From positions 1-51,903 of the forward strand of contig CACYWQ010000014.1 of assembly GCA_902778165.1 (NCBI GenBank): a DNA stretch of 51,903 nt, written 5' to 3'. This DNA comes from an uncultured Lachnospiraceae bacterium. Its GTDB lineage: Bacteria > Bacillota > Clostridia > Lachnospirales > Lachnospiraceae. The notes below the pieces were generated by a model, which had not been told where the DNA came from, did not search any database, and saw only the letters and a program-made list of their open reading frames with translations. Position numbers and translations under genes: made by a program. Shown here one piece after another: positions 35,981 to 50,457 of the stretch. Numbering within the stretch: the stretch's first letter is position 1; every line of letters starts with the position of its first letter.

Positions 35981-36760
35981 TCATTTGTTAAAAAACAGTT
36001 TTCTTGCGTTCTTGTAAGTCTGATCCAAAACCTTATGATAAGGTACGTCCTTAATCGCAGCAATCTTCTCCGCTATAAGCGGGATATATAATGAACTGTT
36101 CCGCTCCCCTCTATGCGGTGTAGGTGCAAGATAAGGACAATCCGTCTCAAGCAGTATTCTGTCAAGAGGTATCTCTTCTACCGCTTCGACTACCTTCTTG
36201 GCATTTGAGAAAGTGATCACTCCGCCTATTCCGAAGTAATAACCCAATTTAAGCAACTCCCTTGCGGTCTCGACGCTGTAAGAATAACAATGCATTACAC
36301 CCGGAATATCTCTGGCAATATTGCTCTTAAGAATCTTCATTGTATCTTCCGTGGCTTCTCTTGAATGGATTATAACAGGCTTGCCCAATTCCCTGGCAAG
36401 CATAAGCTGTCTTTCAAACCAATCCTTCTGAAGCTCCTTGGCCGGCTCATCATAATGATAATCAAGTCCGATCTCACCTATAGCCAGTACCTTCTCTCTT
36501 CTGGCGACTTCCCTGACATGCTGGTAGTTATTCTCATTAAGTTCCCCGACTTCACTGGGATGGATACCTATTGCCGCATATACATGGTCATACTGCATCG
36601 CCAAATCATGCGTCGTGTCCACACTTCTTAGATCAGCCGCTATATTAAGCACATATGCATATCCGTCATCGTACAGGGTCTTAAGCAATTCGTCCCTGTC
36701 ATCATCGAAGGCCTTATCATCATAATGCGCATGTGTCTCGAAGATTCTTATGTCTCTCAT
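35981..36760 (-). CDS. TatD-family metal-dependent DNase
   Basis: A 259-aa TIM-barrel hydrolase. It shows metal ligands FETHAHYDD (H10, H12), Glu in AIGEIGLDYHYD, His in VIIHSREA and VMHCYSYS, and Asp in LLETDCPYLAPTPHRG. Characterised members are 3'-5' DNases in DNA repair or fragmentation. It often sits near rsmA, here about 3 kb away with the ABC/LytTR block between. ATG is preceded by GGTGAG. Confidence 0.93.
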   Translation of the reverse strand: MRDIRIFETHAHYDDKAFDDDRDELLKTLYDDGYAYVLNIAADLRSVDTTHDLAMQYDHVYAAIGIHPSEVGELNENNYQHVREVARREKVLAIGEIGLDYHYDEPAKELQKDWFERQLMLARELGKPVIIHSREATEDTMKILKSNIARDIPGVMHCYSYSVETARELLKLGYYFGIGGVITFSNAKKVVEAVEEIPLDRILLETDCPYLAPTPHRGERNSSLYIPLIAEKIAAIKDVPYHKVLDQTYKNARKLFFNK

Positions 36761-37137: not shown

Positions 37138-37797
37138 CTACCCGTATATCGCCGCGGTTCCTGCGGGCAGTCTGAATCTGTCGTTATCCCTGCTGTAATA
37201 CTTATGACTTGCTTCAAGTACCGTAGATTTACCGTCCGTTATATCTATTATGGATACCGCACAGTTATCAAGCTTGATATTCCAGAAATCCCCGATCGGG
37301 TTATCAAGCAGTCTGTTGATAATGGTCCTGTTCATACATCCGTGACCTATTATCAGTATATTCTCACACTTACCTTCAAGCGGAATTATCTCTTTATCCC
37401 AGAAATCTGCCGTACGGGCAAATACATCGTCAAATGATTCCCCACCCTCTGGCGGATTGTAAGCCTCTGTTCTGAATTCAAAGTTATATATCGGATTGCT
37501 GTCATCGTCATCTCTTCCGGGAATCCTGTGACCTTCCCTCTCACCGAAATTGATCTCAAGCAATCTCTTATCGGTTAGAATCTCCAACTCTCTTCCACGA
37601 TTAAAAATCTCCGCCGTCATATAAGCTCTTCTAAGCGGAGAAGAATAAATCATATCAAATTTCGTATCCTTAAGCTCTTTAGCCGTTATCTCGGCCAACT
37701 CAATGCCTATCTCATTAAGGACCGTATCGGACTGACCCTGCAATCTGCACTCTCTGTTCCAATCGGTCTCACCGTGTCTTACCAAATATATCTTCAT
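37138..37797 (-). CDS. Histidine phosphatase (phosphoglycerate-mutase-like) family protein
   Basis: A 219-aa cytoplasmic phosphatase. The N-terminal LVRHGETDWN contains the phospho-accepting His (H8) and the RHG motif; YSSPLRRAYMTAEI and the second catalytic His in IIGHGCMNRTII complete the site. Family members hydrolyse varied phosphoesters; true phosphoglycerate mutase is less likely. Its ATG overlaps the aldehyde dehydrogenase stop by one base (TAATG), so the two are coupled. Confidence 0.9.
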   Translation of the reverse strand: MKIYLVRHGETDWNRECRLQGQSDTVLNEIGIELAEITAKELKDTKFDMIYSSPLRRAYMTAEIFNRGRELEILTDKRLLEINFGEREGHRIPGRDDDDSNPIYNFEFRTEAYNPPEGGESFDDVFARTADFWDKEIIPLEGKCENILIIGHGCMNRTIINRLLDNPIGDFWNIKLDNCAVSIIDITDGKSTVLEASHKYYSRDNDRFRLPAGTAAIYG

Positions 37798-39167
37798 TAC
37801 TTCATCATCCTTCGAATCACTGACATCTTATGCTCCGTATATGGCGGATATTTAACTCCCATATCCGTATTACCGCTTACCCTAAGCACACTCTTAACAT
37901 GCGAGAATGTATCGAATCCGGATTTACCGTGATAAGTACCCATTCCGCTTGTTCCTATTCCACCGAAAGGAAGAGCTTCATTGGTCATCTGAACCATACA
38001 ATCATTGACGCAACAACTGCCAAAAGATATATCGGATATTATTTCATCAGCCGATTCCTTATCTTCAGTGAATATATATAATGCCAGGGACTTAGGTCTT
38101 CTCTTAAGAAGGGCCAGCATCTCTTCTCTGTCATCATAGGATATTACAGGCAGGATGGGTCCGAATATCTCATTTCTCATTATGTCGTCATCAAATGTCA
38201 CATCGGGAAAAACAGCGGGCTCTATGCGCATCTGCGAATCGTCACATCTGCCACCTATTACGCCGGACACTCTTCCCTTATCAATAAGATTCTTAAGTCG
38301 CATATAATGATGAAGATTGATTATTCTCGGATAATCCCCGTTGGCAAACGGATCTCCCACTAATTCCTTGACACTTGCCGTTAATGCATCGATCAATTGC
38401 TGCTTAACGGATACCGGAACCAACACATAATCGGGAGCCGTGGCACTCTGTCCGGCATTTAATATCTTGGACCACATGATCTTCTTGGCAGCAAGTTCAA
38501 TATCCGCCGTTTCATCAATAATGCATGGATTCTTACCACCCAGTTCAAGGGTCACGGGTGTAAGATTATCCGCCGCTGCTCTCATAACAGTCTTTCCGAC
38601 TCTCTCACTTCCGGTAAAGAATATATAATCATATTTCTGTCTGAGAATATCGTCATACGGGATCACTTCATCTATAGCATATACATAATTACGATCAAAT
38701 GTGAAATTGATAATATCAACAACCGCACCTGATGTATACGGACTTGTCTTGGGTGTCTTGATTATCGCACAGTTACCTGCTGCTATGGCTCCGATAAGCG
38801 GTGCCATTGTCAGGTAGAAAGGATAATTCCAATGCGACATGATAAGAACTGTTCCGTAGGGTTCTCTTACAGTCATACTCTTAGCAGGCATTAAGAATCT
38901 GGGCGTCTTGATCTTCTCATTTCGTACCCATGAATCGATATTCTTAAGAGCATACTTAATAGCCATAATGACTGGACCTATCTCCGTCATATAGGCTTCC
39001 TGTTTCGCTCTTCCCATATCCTGATATAGAGCATTATATATGACAGGTTCATTCTCCATAACGGATTCAAGAAGTTTCTCTAAACTGTTCTTGCGAAACT
39101 GCAAATCTTTGGTCACTCCGGTATAGTAGAATTCTCTCTGTGTCTTGATAACAGATCCAAGATCCAT
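37797..39167 (-). CDS. Aldehyde dehydrogenase homologue lacking the catalytic cysteine
   Basis: A 456-aa class-3-like (YwdH-type) ALDH fold. NAD-binding and oxyanion features are kept: SHWNYPFYL (N114), IIKTPKTSPYTS (K137), FFTGSERVG and the general-base Glu E208 in LELGGKNPC. The nucleophile motif, normally GQ-T-C-x-APDY, reads GQSATAPDY: the cysteine position is Ala242 (codon GCC, 38442-38444). The oligomerisation and C-terminal substrate regions are intact (NEIFGPILPV, LPFGGIGTSGMG). Ordinary dehydrogenase activity is therefore doubtful. A regulatory, binding or esterase-like role, or early decay, is possible. Confidence 0.85.
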   Translation of the reverse strand: MDLGSVIKTQREFYYTGVTKDLQFRKNSLEKLLESVMENEPVIYNALYQDMGRAKQEAYMTEIGPVIMAIKYALKNIDSWVRNEKIKTPRFLMPAKSMTVREPYGTVLIMSHWNYPFYLTMAPLIGAIAAGNCAIIKTPKTSPYTSGAVVDIINFTFDRNYVYAIDEVIPYDDILRQKYDYIFFTGSERVGKTVMRAAADNLTPVTLELGGKNPCIIDETADIELAAKKIMWSKILNAGQSATAPDYVLVPVSVKQQLIDALTASVKELVGDPFANGDYPRIINLHHYMRLKNLIDKGRVSGVIGGRCDDSQMRIEPAVFPDVTFDDDIMRNEIFGPILPVISYDDREEMLALLKRRPKSLALYIFTEDKESADEIISDISFGSCCVNDCMVQMTNEALPFGGIGTSGMGTYHGKSGFDTFSHVKSVLRVSGNTDMGVKYPPYTEHKMSVIRRMMK

Positions 39168-39182
39168 TTTATCCTCTTTCCT

Positions 39183-41147
39183 CTATTCCATAGGTGTAAA
39201 TCTCATATCTCCGATATACAGAGATCCTTCACCTTCTTTGGTAATCACAATCTTATAATTTCTTCCGGGATTTAATATATAATCCGCCACTTTATTCTCA
39301 GATGAAAGACTAAATCTGTCCGTAAGTTCTTCACCGTCATATAATTCTACCACGGAATCAACACCGGGGTCAGCCGAATAGTCTATTGACCATACACAGG
39401 ATTCTTCCGTATGCATAACGGGGCTTACAAGTATCTCTCCGACTTCCGTGGTTGTAAGATGGCCCTTAGCATCAATATCACCCTTGACTTCATAACCGGG
39501 TGCTGTTACAAGGTCCGTCACGATAAGGCCTTTTAGAGGTCCTGCGATTCCGTCTATCGGGTTATTATTCGATATATACAGACCATAGTCATATGCCTCG
39601 CCATTAAGTACATAACTTTCCTTAATATAATCCGGACATTTATCATAATCCGAACCAATCGCTATAAGAACGTTACGATCAGAATACATACTTCTGTCTT
39701 TGGCTGAATGATAGAAGTCATGATTAACAATCTCTCCCGTCTCAGGCTCATATGTCTCGTAGCTTCTTGTCGTGTCGGCAATCCTTAACCATTCCGTACC
39801 ATATCCGGTCTCACATACGCAGAAAGCAGTATCCACATCATTCTCTTTCATATATGATATTATCGCTCCGTTAACGGCCTTGGAATAATCCTCTCTGTGG
39901 AAATACTGTCTCGATCCCCAGAATATCTGATACAGATTAAGAATCAATAATGCCGCAACCACAAGACCATACAACAGCGTGTTAAGTCCCATACTGTCTT
40001 TGTTATCAAGGAATCTTCCTATACCAATGGCCGCACATATCATAAGAGGAATTGCACCCATAAGATGATATCTCTGCTGTGAACCGGAAATAAACAGTAT
40101 AAAGTAATTCCACATAAATACCGAAATAAGCAACTGTTCGGCTCCGATATCCGATATCTTAAGACCTTCAGAAGATTCAATCGCAATCGTTTTTCCCACG
40201 GACTGCAGTCCGAATACCAATACGATCACAAATATAAAGAATCTTACTATGGACATAACCGTACTTAAGGACATTACCGGTGTGCTCTTTACGGGGAAGA
40301 CCCTGAACATCTCCGTTAGATCAAGGAATGTTGAGAAGAGGTTTTGCCTTATCTCGGGCATCGATTTGATCACTGCAAGTTCTGAATTGGGGGATACGTC
40401 ATTAAGCTTGCATATTATGATTCCTGCCATTGTAACTATTACAGAAGTTGCCGACAGAATAATACGACGAATCGTCTCCTTGTTCAGACCTTTGATCAAC
40501 CAATCGATTATAAGAAGTACTATTACCGGGAATATTCCACAGATAAATACATATATACCGCTTGAAACAGCCGTGATAAGAAGCAACGCATAATACAGAA
40601 CAGCAAGGCTTATTATTCCGACATTTCTTCCCTTACCCGAAGGGGTAAGGATAAGGGTTATGAAGATAAGTGGGATTAAGACCTTGTGTGTGTAGTGCTG
40701 CGCGCCGATAAACAGCATGTTGGTATAATACAACATACCGAAATCAAATAACGTCAGTATCAACGCCGCAGCCGTTAATCTGCAGACGCGACTCATTCCG
40801 GAAATCTTAAGTAATCTGTATAAGACCGCACACCAAAGTGCAATGTTGATCAAATTGGCTATCGAATATGAGATCATGATATTGCCTGTGATTATATATA
40901 TGGGTATGGCAAATATCGCGCTGTGGTCAAGCTCTGCAGTCGTAATGTAATTCCAGTGCGGAAGGAAGAACGTTCTCTTATCTCCCATCTCCACGACATG
41001 TCGCAGTACTCTTGCAAAGTCAACATCTATCACATCGGATAATCTGAATATATTGGCGTATATCAAGAACAAGAGCTCTAAGGCAATGGTTGCGATCAGA
41101 GCAAGTTCCGCTAAATATCGTATTCTGTCCTTGTTCTTACTTATCAT
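39183..41147 (-). CDS. Large multi-pass membrane protein, GT-C glycosyltransferase-like
   Basis: A 654-aa protein with about 11-12 membrane helices (to about 430) and a C-terminal extracellular beta-rich domain (about 450-654). The first extracellular loop contains VIDVDFARVLRHVVEM, with acidic residues placed like the catalytic Asp of GT-C glycosyltransferases; PHWNYITTAELDHS follows. No closer family is recognised, so transfer from a lipid-linked sugar is inference. It starts 7 nt after an SGNH lipoprotein gene and ends 15 nt before the ALDH gene. Confidence 0.65.
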   Translation of the reverse strand: MISKNKDRIRYLAELALIATIALELLFLIYANIFRLSDVIDVDFARVLRHVVEMGDKRTFFLPHWNYITTAELDHSAIFAIPIYIITGNIMISYSIANLINIALWCAVLYRLLKISGMSRVCRLTAAALILTLFDFGMLYYTNMLFIGAQHYTHKVLIPLIFITLILTPSGKGRNVGIISLAVLYYALLLITAVSSGIYVFICGIFPVIVLLIIDWLIKGLNKETIRRIILSATSVIVTMAGIIICKLNDVSPNSELAVIKSMPEIRQNLFSTFLDLTEMFRVFPVKSTPVMSLSTVMSIVRFFIFVIVLVFGLQSVGKTIAIESSEGLKISDIGAEQLLISVFMWNYFILFISGSQQRYHLMGAIPLMICAAIGIGRFLDNKDSMGLNTLLYGLVVAALLILNLYQIFWGSRQYFHREDYSKAVNGAIISYMKENDVDTAFCVCETGYGTEWLRIADTTRSYETYEPETGEIVNHDFYHSAKDRSMYSDRNVLIAIGSDYDKCPDYIKESYVLNGEAYDYGLYISNNNPIDGIAGPLKGLIVTDLVTAPGYEVKGDIDAKGHLTTTEVGEILVSPVMHTEESCVWSIDYSADPGVDSVVELYDGEELTDRFSLSSENKVADYILNPGRNYKIVITKEGEGSLYIGDMRFTPME

Positions 41148-43525: not shown

Positions 43526-44002
43526 TTACACCCTAAAGCCTCTGCTTGCCGTCTCATTGGTCAGACTGTCAAGCACTCTGTCCTTACTGTATGTCATACC
43601 GGTAAGAACCGATTGTGTATGGACCATTACCGGACCTGATTTATCGGTGTCCGCAATTTTGTCATAGGAATCCTTAAGACGCTTTAACTTACTAAGTACA
43701 TCCTTAAGTCCTTCCGTCTCACCCGAAATATATGCGGCACGAAGTGTATTCTTCATATATGTGTAGAGTCTGTTCAAAGACTTAGCCAGGTCGTATTCAA
43801 AATGCAGATTATTCTGCATCTCTTCTATACACCTCATGGCATTAGCCGTGGAGAAGCTCACACTGCCAATCTCACCTGCACTCGCAGCGGCAATGGCTTC
43901 TTCCACATAATCTATAGTAATCTCATAGAGAATCACTATCAAACCTGCCCTGTTGGCTTGAGATATACGTAATGTATATTCATTCTTCTTCTCACTTGTC
44001 AT
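43526..44002 (-). CDS. fliS: FliS-like flagellin chaperone
   Basis: A 158-aa helical protein. The N-terminal YTLRISQANRAGLIVILYEITIDYVEEAIAA matches FliS, which binds the flagellin C-terminus and keeps it unfolded for export. The helical bundle continues to about 130. The C-terminal 30 residues (MVHTQSVLTGMTYSKDRVLDSLTNE) are longer than in classical FliS. It follows flagellin by 29 nt, the expected partnership. Confidence 0.82.
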   Translation of the reverse strand: MTSEKKNEYTLRISQANRAGLIVILYEITIDYVEEAIAAASAGEIGSVSFSTANAMRCIEEMQNNLHFEYDLAKSLNRLYTYMKNTLRAAYISGETEGLKDVLSKLKRLKDSYDKIADTDKSGPVMVHTQSVLTGMTYSKDRVLDSLTNETASRGFRV

Positions 44003-44031: not shown

Positions 44032-45507
44032 TTACTGCAGAAGCTGAAGCATCTGCGAAGGTCTTTCGTTAGCTTGCGCAAGTATGGCGGTTGCTGCCTG
44101 AGATACTATCTGAAGATTAGAGTAATTACTCATTTCTTCCGCCATATCCGTATCCATGATACGTGAGTATGCGGCTGTCATATTCTCATCACTTGTAGCA
44201 AGATTGCTCTCTGTATGCTCAAGTCTGTTCTGACAAGCACCGAGTCTGCTTCTCATCGCAGATATCTGACCTATGGCTGCACTAATCTGATCGATTGCCT
44301 TGGTTGCGCCCTCTCTTGTTCCTACATTAAGACACATGTCCTTGGTCTGATCACTGTCCTGATACTTAAATCCAAGTGACTCCATCGATAATTTCTCAAA
44401 TCTGATATCAAGAGTCTGGCTTTCATTGGCTCCTATCTGGAATGTCATGGCACCGTATCCTGTCAGATCAACCTCTACAGGTATTGCTGCATTGGGAGTA
44501 AAACTATATGTAGTTGTGTCATTTGTTACAGTCTTTGTGTATCTTCCCTTGGCACCTGAATAATTATACAGATTAGTTGTATCAGTACTTACTGTCTCAA
44601 ATACACCGTCAGCATTCTTCTTCTGATGCTCAACTATAGTATCTACTCTGGATACTCCGCCTATATCTGTATAGTTCTTCGTGGTTGTAACAATCTGATA
44701 ATCTGTATCTCCGGAATGTGCAGGATCTTCACCTGTAACCGAAGTAGAACCCGAAGGATCCGCCTTCTCCATCTCCTTAGAGAAGTTTTTAATATCATAT
44801 GCCGAGAAATCCAACTTAAACTCATCACCGTTGCTGCCCTTAAAGTCCAGATGATACATATCACCACTGACTGTATACATCTCCTGCTTATTATCGGGAA
44901 GTGTCATATTTACACGATTGTCTGACGAGCCGTTAAACTCCTTAAGTGTGATTATTCCGTCTTTGTTTTCTTCGAATAATATCTGACTTGCCTGTATATC
45001 AAATGAGTACTGTCCGTACATGATAGTATCCGAATAACTGTCGACCTTTATCTCAAGTGTATTGGTGTAACCCTTAAGATCAAAGTCACCGTTAAATAAT
45101 TTCTGACTGTTATACTCTGTTGTCTGTCCGATTCGATCTATCTCTTCTCCAAGCTGCGCTATCTCCTGCTGAATGGCATCTCTGTCACCATCCATTAAGG
45201 TTCCGTTAGCTGATTTAACCGACAGTTCATTCATTCTCTGCAGAATATCGTGCACTTCCGCAAGTGCTCCGTCTGCTATCTCTATTACTGATACGCCATC
45301 CTTGGCATCCTGTGACGCTGCTTTCAATCCTTTGAGCTGCGCATGCATCCTCCTGGAAATCGCAAGTCCGGCTGCATCATCCTTAGCAGAATTGATCTTG
45401 TAGCCGCTTGAGAGCTTGCCCAGTGAGGTGGTCAGCTTATTGTCGTTTAACTTAAGTGAATTGTTGGCAATCATAGCTGACACATTGTAATTGATCTTAA
45501 GACTCAT
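44032..45507 (-). CDS. Flagellin
   Basis: A 491-aa filament protein. The conserved N-terminal D0/D1 region is SLGKLSSGYKINSAKDDAAGLAISRRM... to about 150, and the C-terminal D1/D0 is from about 400 to the typical QAATAILAQANERPSQMLQLLQ end. The middle (about 170-390) is a surface-exposed variable beta domain. It is exported by the flagellar secretion system with FliS. Its ATG overlaps the stop of the 973-aa gene (ATGA), with GGAGG inside that gene, so it is translated as part of a polycistronic message, unusual for flagellin. Confidence 0.96.
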   Translation of the reverse strand: MSLKINYNVSAMIANNSLKLNDNKLTTSLGKLSSGYKINSAKDDAAGLAISRRMHAQLKGLKAASQDAKDGVSVIEIADGALAEVHDILQRMNELSVKSANGTLMDGDRDAIQQEIAQLGEEIDRIGQTTEYNSQKLFNGDFDLKGYTNTLEIKVDSYSDTIMYGQYSFDIQASQILFEENKDGIITLKEFNGSSDNRVNMTLPDNKQEMYTVSGDMYHLDFKGSNGDEFKLDFSAYDIKNFSKEMEKADPSGSTSVTGEDPAHSGDTDYQIVTTTKNYTDIGGVSRVDTIVEHQKKNADGVFETVSTDTTNLYNYSGAKGRYTKTVTNDTTTYSFTPNAAIPVEVDLTGYGAMTFQIGANESQTLDIRFEKLSMESLGFKYQDSDQTKDMCLNVGTREGATKAIDQISAAIGQISAMRSRLGACQNRLEHTESNLATSDENMTAAYSRIMDTDMAEEMSNYSNLQIVSQAATAILAQANERPSQMLQLLQ

Positions 45508-48425
45508 AGGTTTCCTCCACTGCGTATCGTGTATATAAATTGTTTTGCTATATTGTATAAGGCCTTGGTATCAACAGCCTCATTATTATTATCGGCATCC
45601 GATGCTCTATGCTTAACAGGTACTCCCGGATCTCCGGTCACAAATCTTATATTGCAATCCTCATAGCCGATATCGGCCAGTCTTCTGATGAACTCATCTC
45701 CGATGGGTTTAAGTATCTCCTGATTCTGTCTGCCTGATGTAATAAAACCGACATCAACTGACTCTCCTTTAACCCTGATCTGTGCCTGCACCGCGCCGAA
45801 CACCTCCGTATCCATTGACGCCGTTACAAGACCTGTCTCATTTCCGTGTACCAGTCTTAAATTGATGTCCGTATACTTACCGTCCATCATAACAGGTATA
45901 TGATAATTCTCGGATCTTGAATGACTGCTTATAAGTGATATCTGCTTATGCATAAGAGATATACTTCTTAAATCTATAAGACTCTGAGCGCTGTAATCCG
46001 TCATCATCTGCAATGTCTCTGTCATGGTCTGTGTAAGAGAACTGTATGCATTAATTGCAGATTCTTTATCCGTAAGAGATTCCGTGAATTTCTCCATTGC
46101 ATCTGTCAGATCCGATTCCATATGACCTGATGTCATCGATGAATCTTTTGCTTCACTAAGCTTACGATCCGTTCTTGATGCATAAGTCTTAAGGTTTCTA
46201 AACAAGTCATTAGGTGCCGTGAATTGTTGCATCTGTGCCAGAACTGTATTTGGTGTTATGTTAACCTTACTTCCCAACAGTTCGCTTATAACTGCATCAT
46301 CCGCAGTTGCAACAGATCTTAACTGCTTCACATTTTCCATAAGATATTCTTCATCAAGCTTATTATAGACTTCTTCGCTTATCTTATTCTTAAATGCTTC
46401 TTCTATCTGATCTGTTATGGATATTCCCTTAGGAATTCTCTCAGACAGCATACCGAAACTGTCATCTATTCCTGCGTCTATGACCTTGCCACTGCTTCTC
46501 ATCGCCCTAAGAAGATTACCGAATGTCATATCGGTGTTGCTCTCAAGCAATTTGCCGATTGCCGCATGATCGGTTCTCTCTATACGATTAAGCATTCTGT
46601 ATATTCCTATGTATGAAGTTCTCTCTTCATCCGTTATCTTACCGCTTTGCTCAAGTTTATATAAGAAACGACTGTACTTCTCTGCTTCTCTCTTAGGATC
46701 ATGATCGGTCTCGCTGATATGATTGACAAGCTCATCTATATCAAGATCAAGCGGATTGACACCTTCTCTTATAAGCTGAAGCGTCTTACCCGGAGTAAGT
46801 GCCTTAAGCACACCCGTAAGTTTATTATCGGCGGCCTTCACTCTCTGAATACTTTCTTCATTGATGACCATACTGTTATAACCGAGTATTCTGACTGCGC
46901 GCCTGTTCTCTTCAGTCACATCAAGACCGATATCCTTAAGTATGTCGTCAACATTACGGAATGCCTTGTTTATCGAATCTCCGAGATCTCTTCTGATTTC
47001 GGTTCCGACTGCTTCATAGGTCTGTGATGCTGCTTCATATCTCGCCTTATAATCCGATCCGACACTGTGTGCTCTGTTTAGAGTAAATGCACCTTCATTC
47101 TCGGATGATACCTTACCGATAAGTGCCGCAGGCATCTGAGGTAATTCTCTTAAGACTGCAGTTGTTGCGGTATATACCTCTACCTTACGTTCTACGGTAT
47201 TCATATAGGCGGATATATTACCGTCTTTGTTGCCTTCGTTTAATACTTCAGCATTGTTATCTTCCTTAAATAAAGAAGTTAAGATCTTATCCTGCTGCTC
47301 CTTAAGAGCATTGATCGTATCTTCTATGGAATCCGTATCAATCTTTATGCCTGATTCTATAAGCTTAATATTAGCCTCAACGGACATAATAAGTCTTGTC
47401 TGCTCTCTGTTAATTGATGCATCAAGAATCTTATTCTGTAATTCATAAGCTTGTCTGAATGTATTGTTCTTAGCAGGTGCAAGATTGGCATCCTTAGGTG
47501 TCAACCCCTGCGCTATCGCCTGCATCGATGCAGCTACGACAGTTCGTGCCGACACGGGAAATACTATGGAGTTAATCTGTCTGAGACTCTCGATTTTTTG
47601 CTCAGTGACTGGTATTCCCTTCTCAATCAACCAACCGGCATCGTTAATTAACTCATCACGGGTAGCATCCTCTATATCCATCTGATCTATCAGCTTCTCA
47701 AGCTGCGGCTTAAGTTCCGCAAGATCTACGGAATCTGCCTTACGTGCAAGATAACCCGGCATGTCTTCACCGTAATAACCTCTTGCCTGCCTGCTTCCGT
47801 CACCCGATGCACTGAAAGTTGAGGTATAGATATTTCCGACAGTGGGCTTAAGCTCATTCTCCACCATATATTTAATACTGCCGTCGGTAAGCGAATCTAT
47901 TTCTGTCATCATGCTTACGGCTTCGCTTATCTTTCTGGTATTATCCGGTGTATCGGGAAGATCGGCTTCTCTTAATGCCCTCTTAATACTCTCTACATCT
48001 ATATCTCTGCCTGTAATATTCTTAAGCTTCTCATCACTTAAGTCATCGTTAAATCCGGCAACTACCTGACCTGACTCTGCCATAACCGCTTTGATATGGT
48101 CCATTATAGTCTCTCTGCTCTCGGGATCCATATCTGCCGGGTCAAATCCGTCTTCCATTGCCTTCTTATAATCTTCCCCTGACATAGTATTAGACATAAC
48201 AGTCATGTAGTTTCTCACGGTAGATACGTCAATATTAGACGCCTCTTTCTTAAGATCCTCTGTAGTCCTTCCGTGGACTCCATAGGCATTTACATCCGTG
48301 TACATGCCGGTTATGTCTAGTCTGATTGCTCCCGCTTTCTCAGTTTGCGAGAATTTGGGACTTTCGGGGATAGATGTATACTGCTTAACTGCTTCCTTAG
48401 CGTTTACATCCAATCCTATCTTCAT
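45504..48425 (-). CDS. Large flagellar-locus protein, DUF6240-like, with FliK-like C-terminus
   Basis: A 973-aa, largely helical protein without signal peptide or membrane segment, resembling the Lachnospiraceae DUF6240 group. Several repeats of a short motif (TGRDIDVESIKRALREADLP, RDELINDAGWLIEKGIPVTEQ, LDVTEENRRAVRILGYNSMVI, SSGKVIDAGID) suggest related helical modules. The end (about 841-930) reads INLRLVHGNETGLVTASMDT... VKGESVDVGFITSGRQNQEILKP... LADIGYE, the pattern of the FliK hook-length-control domain. AAAGGA lies 7 nt before ATG. Inference: an export-substrate or hook-length/filament switching protein. No flagellar sigma promoter was recognised. Confidence 0.65.
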   Translation of the reverse strand: MKIGLDVNAKEAVKQYTSIPESPKFSQTEKAGAIRLDITGMYTDVNAYGVHGRTTEDLKKEASNIDVSTVRNYMTVMSNTMSGEDYKKAMEDGFDPADMDPESRETIMDHIKAVMAESGQVVAGFNDDLSDEKLKNITGRDIDVESIKRALREADLPDTPDNTRKISEAVSMMTEIDSLTDGSIKYMVENELKPTVGNIYTSTFSASGDGSRQARGYYGEDMPGYLARKADSVDLAELKPQLEKLIDQMDIEDATRDELINDAGWLIEKGIPVTEQKIESLRQINSIVFPVSARTVVAASMQAIAQGLTPKDANLAPAKNNTFRQAYELQNKILDASINREQTRLIMSVEANIKLIESGIKIDTDSIEDTINALKEQQDKILTSLFKEDNNAEVLNEGNKDGNISAYMNTVERKVEVYTATTAVLRELPQMPAALIGKVSSENEGAFTLNRAHSVGSDYKARYEAASQTYEAVGTEIRRDLGDSINKAFRNVDDILKDIGLDVTEENRRAVRILGYNSMVINEESIQRVKAADNKLTGVLKALTPGKTLQLIREGVNPLDLDIDELVNHISETDHDPKREAEKYSRFLYKLEQSGKITDEERTSYIGIYRMLNRIERTDHAAIGKLLESNTDMTFGNLLRAMRSSGKVIDAGIDDSFGMLSERIPKGISITDQIEEAFKNKISEEVYNKLDEEYLMENVKQLRSVATADDAVISELLGSKVNITPNTVLAQMQQFTAPNDLFRNLKTYASRTDRKLSEAKDSSMTSGHMESDLTDAMEKFTESLTDKESAINAYSSLTQTMTETLQMMTDYSAQSLIDLRSISLMHKQISLISSHSRSENYHIPVMMDGKYTDINLRLVHGNETGLVTASMDTEVFGAVQAQIRVKGESVDVGFITSGRQNQEILKPIGDEFIRRLADIGYEDCNIRFVTGDPGVPVKHRASDADNNNEAVDTKALYNIAKQFIYTIRSGGNL

Positions 48426-48549: not shown

Positions 48550-50457
48550 TTATATCTCAAAAACCAGCGCCGTAAATGCAGGAAGGTCAAAAGTCAGCAT
48601 ATAATCTCTGTTATCACAGGGACTCTCCTTAGGAGTAATGTTCTTATGCACCTCATAACCTGTTCCGCCGTATTGCTTGTCATCACTGTTAAGTAATAAT
48701 TTCGCCCTCTTAGATGTAGGTACACCTACTGTATAATTCTCTCTTAATATGGGTGTCATATTTAGTACGAATAATATCCTCTTCTTGCCGTCAAGCGACT
48801 TGCGCATGAAACTGTATGTGCTTCTGTCGGCGTCATCTGCATTGACCCATTCGAATCCGCCCCAGTCATTGTCACATTCATACATGCACTTGTTATTCCT
48901 GTAGATATTAAGTAAGTCTCTTACATAGTCATGCATTCCCTTATTAAGTGGTTCGCCCAGTAAGAACCAGTCAAGCTCTCTTGCTTCACTCCACTCTCTC
49001 TCCTGGCCGAATTCCTGTCCCATAAACAGAAGTTTCTTACCGCAATGACCGAACATGAAGGTGTATCCCACTCTTAAGTTGGCATATTTATCTACCTGGT
49101 ATCCCGGCATCTTCTCAACCATGGAACACTTAAGATGAACCACTTCATCATGAGATAACGGAAGGATGTAATTCTCAGAGCTGTTATAACTCATGGCAAA
49201 TGTAAGCGCATGGTGATTATTCTTGCGGAAGTACGGATCAAGCTTCATATATTCACAGAAGTCATGCATCCATCCCATATTCCACTTAAATGAGAATCCA
49301 AGACCGTCCTTCTCAACAGGTGCTGTGATCTTGGGCCAGGCCGTTGATTCCTCAGCTATGGTCATAACTCCCGGGAATCCGCCATGTATCACACTGTTAA
49401 GATGTTTAAAGAACTCTATTGCCTCTAAATTCTCATTACCGCCGTATTTATTGGGAAGCCACTGGCCATCCTTACGTCCGTAATCAAGATATAACATAGA
49501 GGCCACGGCATCTACACGCAGACCGTCTATATGAAATTCCTTAATCCAGAATAAGGCATTGGCAATAAGGAAGTTCTTGACCTCTGTCTTACCGTAGTTA
49601 AATATCTTCGTGCCCCAATCAGGATGCTCTCCCAGTCTTGTATCAGGATGCTCGTATAAGCAGGTACCGTCAAATTCAGCCAATCCATGTGCATCCTTGG
49701 GGAAATGTGCGGGTACCCAGTCAAGAATAACACCTATTCCGTTCTTATGGAACAGATTAACCATATATGCGAAGTCTTCAGGTGTTCCGTAACGTGATGT
49801 GGGCGCATAGTATCCCGTAACCTGATATCCCCACGATCCGTCAAAGGGATATTCGGCAATACCCATAAGTTCCACATGGGTATACTTCATCTCACTTAGA
49901 TAATCCACCATTCTGTCAGCGAATTCTCTGTATGTATAGAAACCTTCCTCGCCGTTCGGATGTCTCATCCATGAACCGATATGGCACTCATAGATTGCGA
50001 GAGGTTCCTTGTTCATATCCTTGGTCTCTCGGTTCTTCATCCAAGTAGAATCTGTCCATTTAATGGATGCAATATCCACTATTCTTGAGGCTGTTCCCGG
50101 TCTTAACTCTGCACTGTTGGCATAAGGATCAGCCTTATATAACTTCCTTCCGTCCGGCGTGGTTATTAAGAATTTGTACAGTTCGCCGGTCTTGATTCCG
50201 GGAAAAAATCCTGTGAATATACCACCGGGACCCTGTCTCCTAAGTTCATGTGAATCTTCATTCCAATCATTGAATGTTCCCGTCACATGCACTCTGGATG
50301 CGTTAGGTGCCCATACCCCGAAGAATACTCCCTCTTTGCCATCCTCACATGAAGGATGAGCTCCCAGCTTCTTGTATATATCGTAGTGCGATCCCTGTGC
50401 AAATACATACTGGTCCGCCTCTGATATAAACACTGCTTCTCTCTTCTTACCAGCCAC
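48550..50457 (-). CDS. glgB: 1,4-alpha-glucan (glycogen) branching enzyme
   Basis: A 635-aa GH13 enzyme that forms alpha-1,6 branches in glycogen. An N-terminal CBM48 (about 30-130; GVWAPNASRVHVTGTFNDW) precedes the catalytic barrel with DWVPAHFP, GLRVDAVASMLYLDYG (nucleophile D316), TIAEESTAWP (acid/base E369) and LSHDEVVHLK. The C-terminal all-beta domain is complete. The start is GTG with AGGAGG 7 nt upstream. It stands 24 nt after the AAA+-like gene. Other glycogen genes are not in the window. Confidence 0.96.
   Translation of the reverse strand: MAGKKREAVFISEADQYVFAQGSHYDIYKKLGAHPSCEDGKEGVFFGVWAPNASRVHVTGTFNDWNEDSHELRRQGPGGIFTGFFPGIKTGELYKFLITTPDGRKLYKADPYANSAELRPGTASRIVDIASIKWTDSTWMKNRETKDMNKEPLAIYECHIGSWMRHPNGEEGFYTYREFADRMVDYLSEMKYTHVELMGIAEYPFDGSWGYQVTGYYAPTSRYGTPEDFAYMVNLFHKNGIGVILDWVPAHFPKDAHGLAEFDGTCLYEHPDTRLGEHPDWGTKIFNYGKTEVKNFLIANALFWIKEFHIDGLRVDAVASMLYLDYGRKDGQWLPNKYGGNENLEAIEFFKHLNSVIHGGFPGVMTIAEESTAWPKITAPVEKDGLGFSFKWNMGWMHDFCEYMKLDPYFRKNNHHALTFAMSYNSSENYILPLSHDEVVHLKCSMVEKMPGYQVDKYANLRVGYTFMFGHCGKKLLFMGQEFGQEREWSEARELDWFLLGEPLNKGMHDYVRDLLNIYRNNKCMYECDNDWGGFEWVNADDADRSTYSFMRKSLDGKKRILFVLNMTPILRENYTVGVPTSKRAKLLLNSDDKQYGGTGYEVHKNITPKESPCDNRDYMLTFDLPAFTALVFEI

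Follow-up and report, generated by a model that had tools for sequence, protein, structure and literature searches.

Proteins with an aldehyde dehydrogenase (ALDH) fold and no catalytic cysteine are already known, namely human ALDH16A1 and certain aldehyde dehydrogenases (AldDHs) of GRM1 microcompartment loci, and the bacterial protein described here is, judging from its sequence, probably a further ALDH pseudoenzyme. ALDH16 itself is a long protein with an additional ALDH-like domain. In the excerpts of the literature on which we draw, ALDH turnover requires a cysteine thiolate that forms a thiohemiacetal and a thioester (PMC8160307), and human ALDH16A1 is described as a pseudoenzyme without catalytic residues, presumed to have a non-catalytic binding role (PMC10650815, PMC8160307). 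Where GRM1 loci encode two AldDHs, one of them carries Ser or Pro in place of the cysteine and has been suggested to serve as a scaffold or regulator (PMC4207490, in excerpt). Among engineered enzymes covered by these excerpts, the C302A variant of P. syringae AldA showed no detectable activity even when up to 1000-fold more protein was used, retained its tetrameric state and fold, and yielded crystals that contained NAD+ and indole-3-acetate, and the E267Q variant of the same enzyme was also inactive (PMC7745063); the active-centre mutants C302A and C303A of ALDH1A1 lost both of the activities assayed (PMC5620155). No further case of a Cys-less ALDH appeared in the excerpts of PMC5311937 or PMC10211241, and, within the open-access library and the terms searched, nothing was returned on the present gene or on class-3 ALDHs of Lachnospiraceae that lack the Cys.

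The gene lies in a 51,903-nucleotide stretch of DNA from an uncultured Lachnospiraceae bacterium, the whole of which is referred to here as the window. Its open reading frame has an ATG start, 456 codons and zero internal stops, and two other genomes of the same genus (G005 and G016) also encode alanine at the position of the catalytic nucleophile. The features of the gene, with residue counts taken from the alignment, are as follows:

37797..39167, minus strand: class-3-like ALDH of 456 aa with the catalytic Cys replaced by Ala, recognised by its open reading frame, Pfam match, AlphaFold model and PDB match
38442..38444, minus strand: codon 242, GCC (Ala), at the position of the catalytic nucleophile; apart from the three Ala sequences (window, G005, G016), all 44 aligned rows have Cys
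38544..38546, minus strand: codon 208, Glu (general base), kept in the window and G005, Gln in G016
38826..38828, minus strand: codon 114, Asn, kept in 47 of 47 rows
38832..38834, minus strand: codon 112, His in the window and G005, Pro in 42 of 44 other rows, Ser in G016
38169..38171, minus strand: codon 333, the EIFGP Glu, kept in all 46 rows that have a residue at this column
39173..39177, minus strand: AGAGG, a Shine-Dalgarno-like sequence five bases before the ALDH start codon, read directly

The predicted protein matches the ALDH profile PF00171 with E = 1.2e-80 and 271.8 bits (cut-off 23 bits), residues 22-427 aligning to profile positions 50-461, and its AlphaFold model, for which a 28-row alignment served as input, has a mean pLDDT of 92.2 and a pTM of 0.90. 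The top Foldseek match of this model is PDB 6k0z, S. aureus AldH (TM 0.94), and the first 14 rows comprise S. aureus AldH, class 3 ALDH/ALDH3A1, FALDH, TbALDH3, a benzaldehyde dehydrogenase titled class 3 and a steroid ALDH; by sequence, the nearest solved structures are S. aureus AldH (6k0z, phmmer E 2e-134) and mammalian class 3 ALDHs. Fold, closest relatives and a length of about 450 aa thus identify the protein as a class-3-like ALDH, and its score against benzaldehyde dehydrogenase MdlD (NF045701) was 408.1 bits, under the curated NCBIfam cut-off of 550. S. aureus AldH (6k0z, 6k10), the best match of the window protein in both sequence (45% identity) and fold, is presumably an active enzyme, and its deposited chain reads GQTS at the motif, probably as the result of an engineered Cys-to-Ser change.

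In the window protein the motif reads GQSATAPDY, with Ala242 standing where GQxC has its catalytic Cys. Codon 242, read on the minus strand from base 38444 to base 38442, is two changes removed from TGC and three from TGT, in agreement with a preliminary description of this DNA, which had placed it two or more base changes from Cys and had seen that Glu208 and the full length of the protein were kept. Glu208 sits in TLELGGK, and Asn114, Lys137, Thr185, Gly186, Gln240, Glu333, Phe335 and Phe401 are kept as well. The residues typical of class-3-like ALDHs, whose roles we in part assume, are therefore in place: the general base Glu208, the cofactor residue Lys137, Asn114, which we take to be the Asn of the oxyanion hole, and Glu333 and Phe335 of EIFGP, the former presumably a contact of the coenzyme ribose. 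The P112H change, two residues N-terminal of Asn114, is common to the window and G005. Nucleophile gone, fold and reading frame kept: this is a combination to be expected of an ALDH pseudoenzyme.

The window protein has much in common with the systems introduced above and departs from each of them. The C302A mutant of AldA, as described in the excerpt cited, carries the same Cys-to-Ala change and is inactive and folded while binding NAD+ and the acid; it is, however, a mutant made in the laboratory from a tetrameric ALDH about 500 aa long, whereas the change in the window is natural and has been retained over a long divergence. The inactive E267Q variant of AldA is the counterpart of a second change, E208Q, in G016. 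Human ALDH16A1 likewise has an ALDH fold without the catalytic Cys, but, according to the excerpt of PMC10650815, it lacks the whole catalytic triad, whereas the window protein keeps Glu208 and Asn114; moreover, ALDH16A1 is one of many human ALDHs, whereas the window gene is the only class-3-like ALDH found in its genome, and the window protein, with 456 aa and one PF00171 stretch, does not have the ALDH16 architecture. The GRM1 AldDH, as far as the excerpted source goes, is also a bacterial ALDH-fold protein without a nucleophile, but it adjoins another AldDH in a microcompartment locus, whereas Pfam detected no microcompartment shell domain among the 13 neighbouring proteins scanned at the window locus and the residue in question is Ala. 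The window ALDH thus differs from the known Cys-less ALDHs in its class, in the replacing residue, in being the only class-3-like ALDH found in its genome and in the independent repetition of the change in G016.

The two-AldDH arrangement of GRM1 loci, in which an AldDH without Cys is paired with another (PMC4207490, in excerpt), is also the precedent for regarding the window protein as a subunit without catalysis of its own that assembles with an active ALDH of its cell into a mixed oligomer, and a heteromeric partnership was among the roles proposed in the preliminary description. No shell domain was detected in the 13 neighbours scanned at the window locus and no second AldDH was found, the sole other PF00171 match in the window's genome (95% complete, draft assembly of 48 contigs) being ProA. 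Because no PF00171 gene besides ProA was found in this genome, we reject a heteromeric ALDH partner and consider a mixed oligomer very improbable. The genomes of G005 and G016, both 85% complete, likewise contain one other PF00171 open reading frame each (435 and 420 aa), with a similar score.

That the window comes from a single draft assembly of 48 contigs might suggest a sequencing or assembly error at codon 242, but G005, a different assembly, has Ala by a different codon, which rules out a sequencing error, leaves a negligible chance of an error of either kind and confirms that Ala242 is real and not a base-call error. All three Ala codons differ (GCC in the window, GCG in G005 and GCA in G016), and the codon contexts are ACG GCG ATG in G005 and ACT GCA CTG in G016. 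We also considered a compensated one-base deletion and insertion, by which a TGC would now lie out of frame within AGT GCC, and dropped it because the G005 context shows nothing of the kind and the common ancestor probably had Ala already.

In a genus set of 20 genomes, the window's own included, the gene was matched in 17, and position 242 is Ala in three (window, G005 and G016) and Cys in 14. Among the 44 Cys rows of the alignment are a partial row truncated by the end of a contig, the leading fragment of a disrupted copy, and a partial copy that contains stops. G005 is the nearest relative of the window ALDH, the two being identical at 351 of 456 residues (77%). Within the family, 397 genomes, including two of the window's genus (G000 and G017), were scanned for Ala-type motifs and gave four matches, of which the window's alone is an ALDH and the other three are not; the pattern required PDY after the motif, placing ALDHs that end otherwise (such as in ISVDY) outside its coverage. 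The open motif GQ-x-x-x-x-PDY had 82 matches in 398 genomes of the phylum, divided among GQ[ST]C (65, taken as Cys matches by motif and not individually confirmed as ALDHs), GQRC (2) and other residues (15, window included). Only two of the 82 have Ala at the nucleophile position, the window and a 30-aa open reading frame whose surroundings encode no ALDH; among the 14 other-residue matches outside the window, the seven that were read do not lie inside an ALDH and the remaining seven carry no Ala. Given these motif counts, Ala at the nucleophile position is not what would be expected by chance.

Several orthologues in the genus have peculiarities of their own. That of G016 (G016:C11:31587-32912, plus strand) is an open frame of 442 aa in which Cys has likewise become Ala, and appears to be the more extreme pseudoenzyme of the genus. 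The orthologue of G009 (G009:C11:2697-4003, minus strand) keeps its Cys and is split into two frames with the intervening stretch missing; this genome has another ALDH-family gene at C7:29765-30922. G007 has, in addition to an intact Cys copy, a second, partial and stop-bearing one beside a contig end (G007:C26:23-1075), and the Cys orthologues of G004 and G010 have a shorter, different C-terminus (440 aa), with Met or Ser at Tyr115.

In a maximum-likelihood tree of 45 ALDH rows, the window and G005 form a clade (support 100/99) that is sister to the Cys clade of G006, G004 and G010, and G016 is placed apart from them, adjoining G009, which has Cys (support for this pairing 95/76), so that the starred branches of the tree force two changes from Cys to Ala. 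Under an irreversible two-state model, the ancestor of the window and G005 had Ala with a posterior of 0.986, which went to 0.961 when the fitted rates were tripled and to 0.995 when they were divided by three, a ninefold span. We infer that Cys242 was probably lost once in the window/G005 ancestor and separately in G016, a distant member of the genus.

The surroundings of the gene allow it to be followed by position as well as by sequence. The neighbouring genes that serve as markers are:

37138..37797, minus strand: histidine phosphatase superfamily protein, 219 aa, with an RHG motif; its start codon and the stop codon of the ALDH have one base in common (TAATG)
35981..36760, minus strand: TatD-family nuclease, the syntenic marker on the other side of the ALDH
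39183..41147, minus strand: 654-aa hydrophobic protein just upstream of the ALDH, at the same place in G005, G006 and G010
43526..44002, minus strand: FliS, which in the window's species group forms with flagellin the pair that precedes the ALDH
44032..45507, minus strand: flagellin, the upstream partner of FliS

The ALDH is situated between flagellin-FliS and TatD-RsmA in the window, G006, G018, G017, G009 and G016. The G005 contig ends after the phosphatase. In G003 the gene follows flagellin-FliS in inverted orientation, and the remainder of the contig, as far as read, contains no TatD; in G010 and G004 the TatD-RsmA side is present, with no flagellin-FliS in the stretch read, and in G012 flagellin-FliS is present with other genes between it and the ALDH. 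The Cys copies of G007, G008, G011, G014, G015 and G019 are at a different chromosomal place. A histidine phosphatase adjoins the ALDH in the window, G005, G006, G018, G003, G017 (on the opposite strand) and G016; at the loci of G004, G010, G012 and G009 no such neighbour was seen. Because they share this chromosomal place, the Ala proteins are positional orthologues of the Cys enzymes and not side copies. A flagellar link of the ALDH was set aside, G013 and G001 having flagellin-FliS without the ALDH.

Other genes of the window vary in their own ways. The 654-aa protein stands directly before the ALDH in the window, G005, G006 and G010, is absent from the loci read in other relatives, has no Pfam or NCBIfam match at E 0.001 and is 62% identical between the window and G005, less than the four neighbours with which it was compared. 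The DUF6240 protein directly upstream of flagellin (45504-48425, minus strand) is 34-63% identical between the window and other species of the genus, and its other neighbour (48550-50457) is 75-87% identical.

Selection on the gene was estimated with the codon model GY94 with F3x4 for 10 orthologues and for a closer subset of six sequences; all omega values are rough, synonymous sites being near saturation. The overall omega for the 10 orthologues is 0.047, and that of the Ala clade is 0.049 against 0.047 in the background (2dlnL 0.03). On the two terminal Ala branches omega is 0.035, with both omega = 1 (2dlnL 380) and omega = 0.1 (2dlnL 17) rejected, and in the closer subset the Ala branches have an omega of 0.049 against 0.066, omega = 1 again being rejected (2dlnL 372). 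Rough as these values are, purifying selection after the inferred loss of Cys is no weaker than in the Cys orthologues. Fourfold sites agree between the window and G005 at 46 of 137 positions (0.34, chance 0.25), and because these sites are near saturation and 77% of residues are nevertheless identical, the conservation does not merely reflect a short time. Nor is it spread evenly: columns that are constant outside the group differ between the window and G005 in 5 of 75 cases, as against 100 of 381 among the other columns (Fisher p 8e-5). The preliminary description had held that a clade sharing Ala under purifying selection would speak for a new function and that Cys in all close homologues, together with relaxed selection, would speak against it; the window and G005 form the former, G005 having Ala and a low omega.

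Because of synonymous saturation and unstable branch omegas (8 of 17 single-branch tests gave 2dlnL > 3.84), we drew only on the rejection of neutrality and on the Ala branches pooled and compared with the Cys branches. Positive selection on the stem of the Cys loss was accordingly set aside: omega there is at the bound (2dlnL 8.4) and indistinguishable from omega = 1, and single-branch tests exceed 3.84 as often as just given. The G016 branch has an omega of 0.029, a value in which relaxation is inseparable, the long branch mixing the time before and after the loss. As a control, the histidine phosphatase of seven species had an omega of 0.043 on the two terminal Ala-lineage branches against 0.008 in the background (2dlnL 4.9), and there is no sign that the ALDH (0.035-0.049) is less constrained than the phosphatase on the terminal branches. 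Retention by selection on the terminal Ala branches depends on Ala being ancestral; two separate recent losses in the window and G005 would weaken the argument.

The condition of the gene elsewhere in the genus raises the question of decay, in which aldehyde oxidation is no longer needed, the active site degenerates first and the gene is then lost without having gained a new function. G013 (96% complete) has no ALDH match, and the gene is absent from its flagellin-FliS region and TatD neighbourhood in the stretches read. G001 and G002, which are less complete, also have no ALDH match; as no TatD match was obtained in either, these two absences are weak evidence, and G001 has flagellin-FliS without the ALDH. 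The orthologue is thus dispensable in the genus, and because it is missing, broken (as in G009) or more degraded in other species, slow gene loss stays a rival explanation. G016 deviates at eleven of 75 constant columns, including E208Q, F335Y, T185S, Y115C and F401L, and so lacks both nucleophile and general base; G005 deviates at six (K53R, E69A, C242A, L361S, F401A, H413R) and has K137R besides, outside the constant-column set; changes such as those in G005 and G016 would also result from a slowly decaying active site. In each Ala genome only one other PF00171 gene was found (ProA in the window's), so that no spare ALDH is seen taking over. Against decay, the window deviates at only five of the 75 columns (K53R, E69A, T241S, C242A and P360S), which is within the range of the Cys orthologues of its group (1, 6, 6, 4, 3, 1 and 4 deviations at 73-75 constant columns, and 1 of 49 in the G009 piece), so that by this measure the window protein is hardly more degraded than they are; the 2 x 456 codons of the window and G005 are free of stops, frameshifts and length changes, and purifying selection on the Ala branches equals that on the Cys branches in two data sets, as given above. 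We regard a relict on its way out as unlikely, although a serious contender: the selection data on the window/G005 lineage outweigh the evidence for decay, but not decisively.

The retention of Glu208, Asn114 and the cofactor residues, together with the new His112 next to the oxyanion Asn, could also mean that the protein is still active with an altered chemistry, in which another residue (Cys386 or His112) or a water activated by Glu208 takes over from the lost Cys. Cys386, however, is shared by 43 of the 44 rows that also have Cys242, and we reject it as a new nucleophile; G016 has lost Glu208 too, and the engineered Cys-to-Ala ALDHs described in the excerpts of PMC7745063 and PMC5620155 are inactive. 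We hold this explanation to be improbable. The esterase-like chemistry put forward in the preliminary description is unlikely as well, because the esterase activity of ALDHs is described, in the excerpt of PMC8160307, as using the same active-site residues. Its observation of Ala stands, and the clade under purifying selection bears out the test it had set, whereas its heteromeric proposal finds no support and its esterase proposal little; aldehyde or nucleotide sensing, which it had also named, may be the role of the protein.

Retention as a pseudoenzyme, in contrast to decay or altered chemistry, seems to us fairly probable: a single-copy, vertically inherited class-3-like ALDH would have lost its nucleophile in the ancestor of the window and G005 species and then been kept as a protein that binds NAD(P) and/or aldehyde without turnover. 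The change from Cys242 to Ala would have arisen in that common ancestor and, as no thiohemiacetal could form, would have ended both aldehyde dehydrogenase and esterase turnover. NAD(P)(H) binding would be retained and aldehyde or acid probably bound non-covalently, as in the engineered Cys-to-Ala ALDH, and the role of the protein in the cell would be one of binding, regulation or structure. The sole direct lead to a partner or signal is the single base shared with the histidine phosphatase gene, an overlap that lay behind the earlier proposal of translational coupling and was found as described. A bolder version, which we put forward with considerable doubt, is that within this genus the sole class-3-like ALDH of the cell became, on two independent occasions and each time through Cys-to-Ala, a protein that binds without catalysing, and that in the window lineage it is a natural substrate trap that has kept Glu208, the oxyanion Asn and the cofactor site, gained His112 by the oxyanion hole, and informs a partner, perhaps the histidine phosphatase, of the state of NAD(P)H or aldehyde.

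ALDHs are commonly annotated as enzymes from their fold alone, and the genes of the window and G016 would be misannotated in this way. The catalytic residue has been lost here from the one class-3-like ALDH that the genome was found to encode, not from a spare paralogue, and the close Cys orthologues at the same chromosomal place, together with the independent repeat within the genus, provide natural pairs for learning what selection keeps in a dead enzyme.
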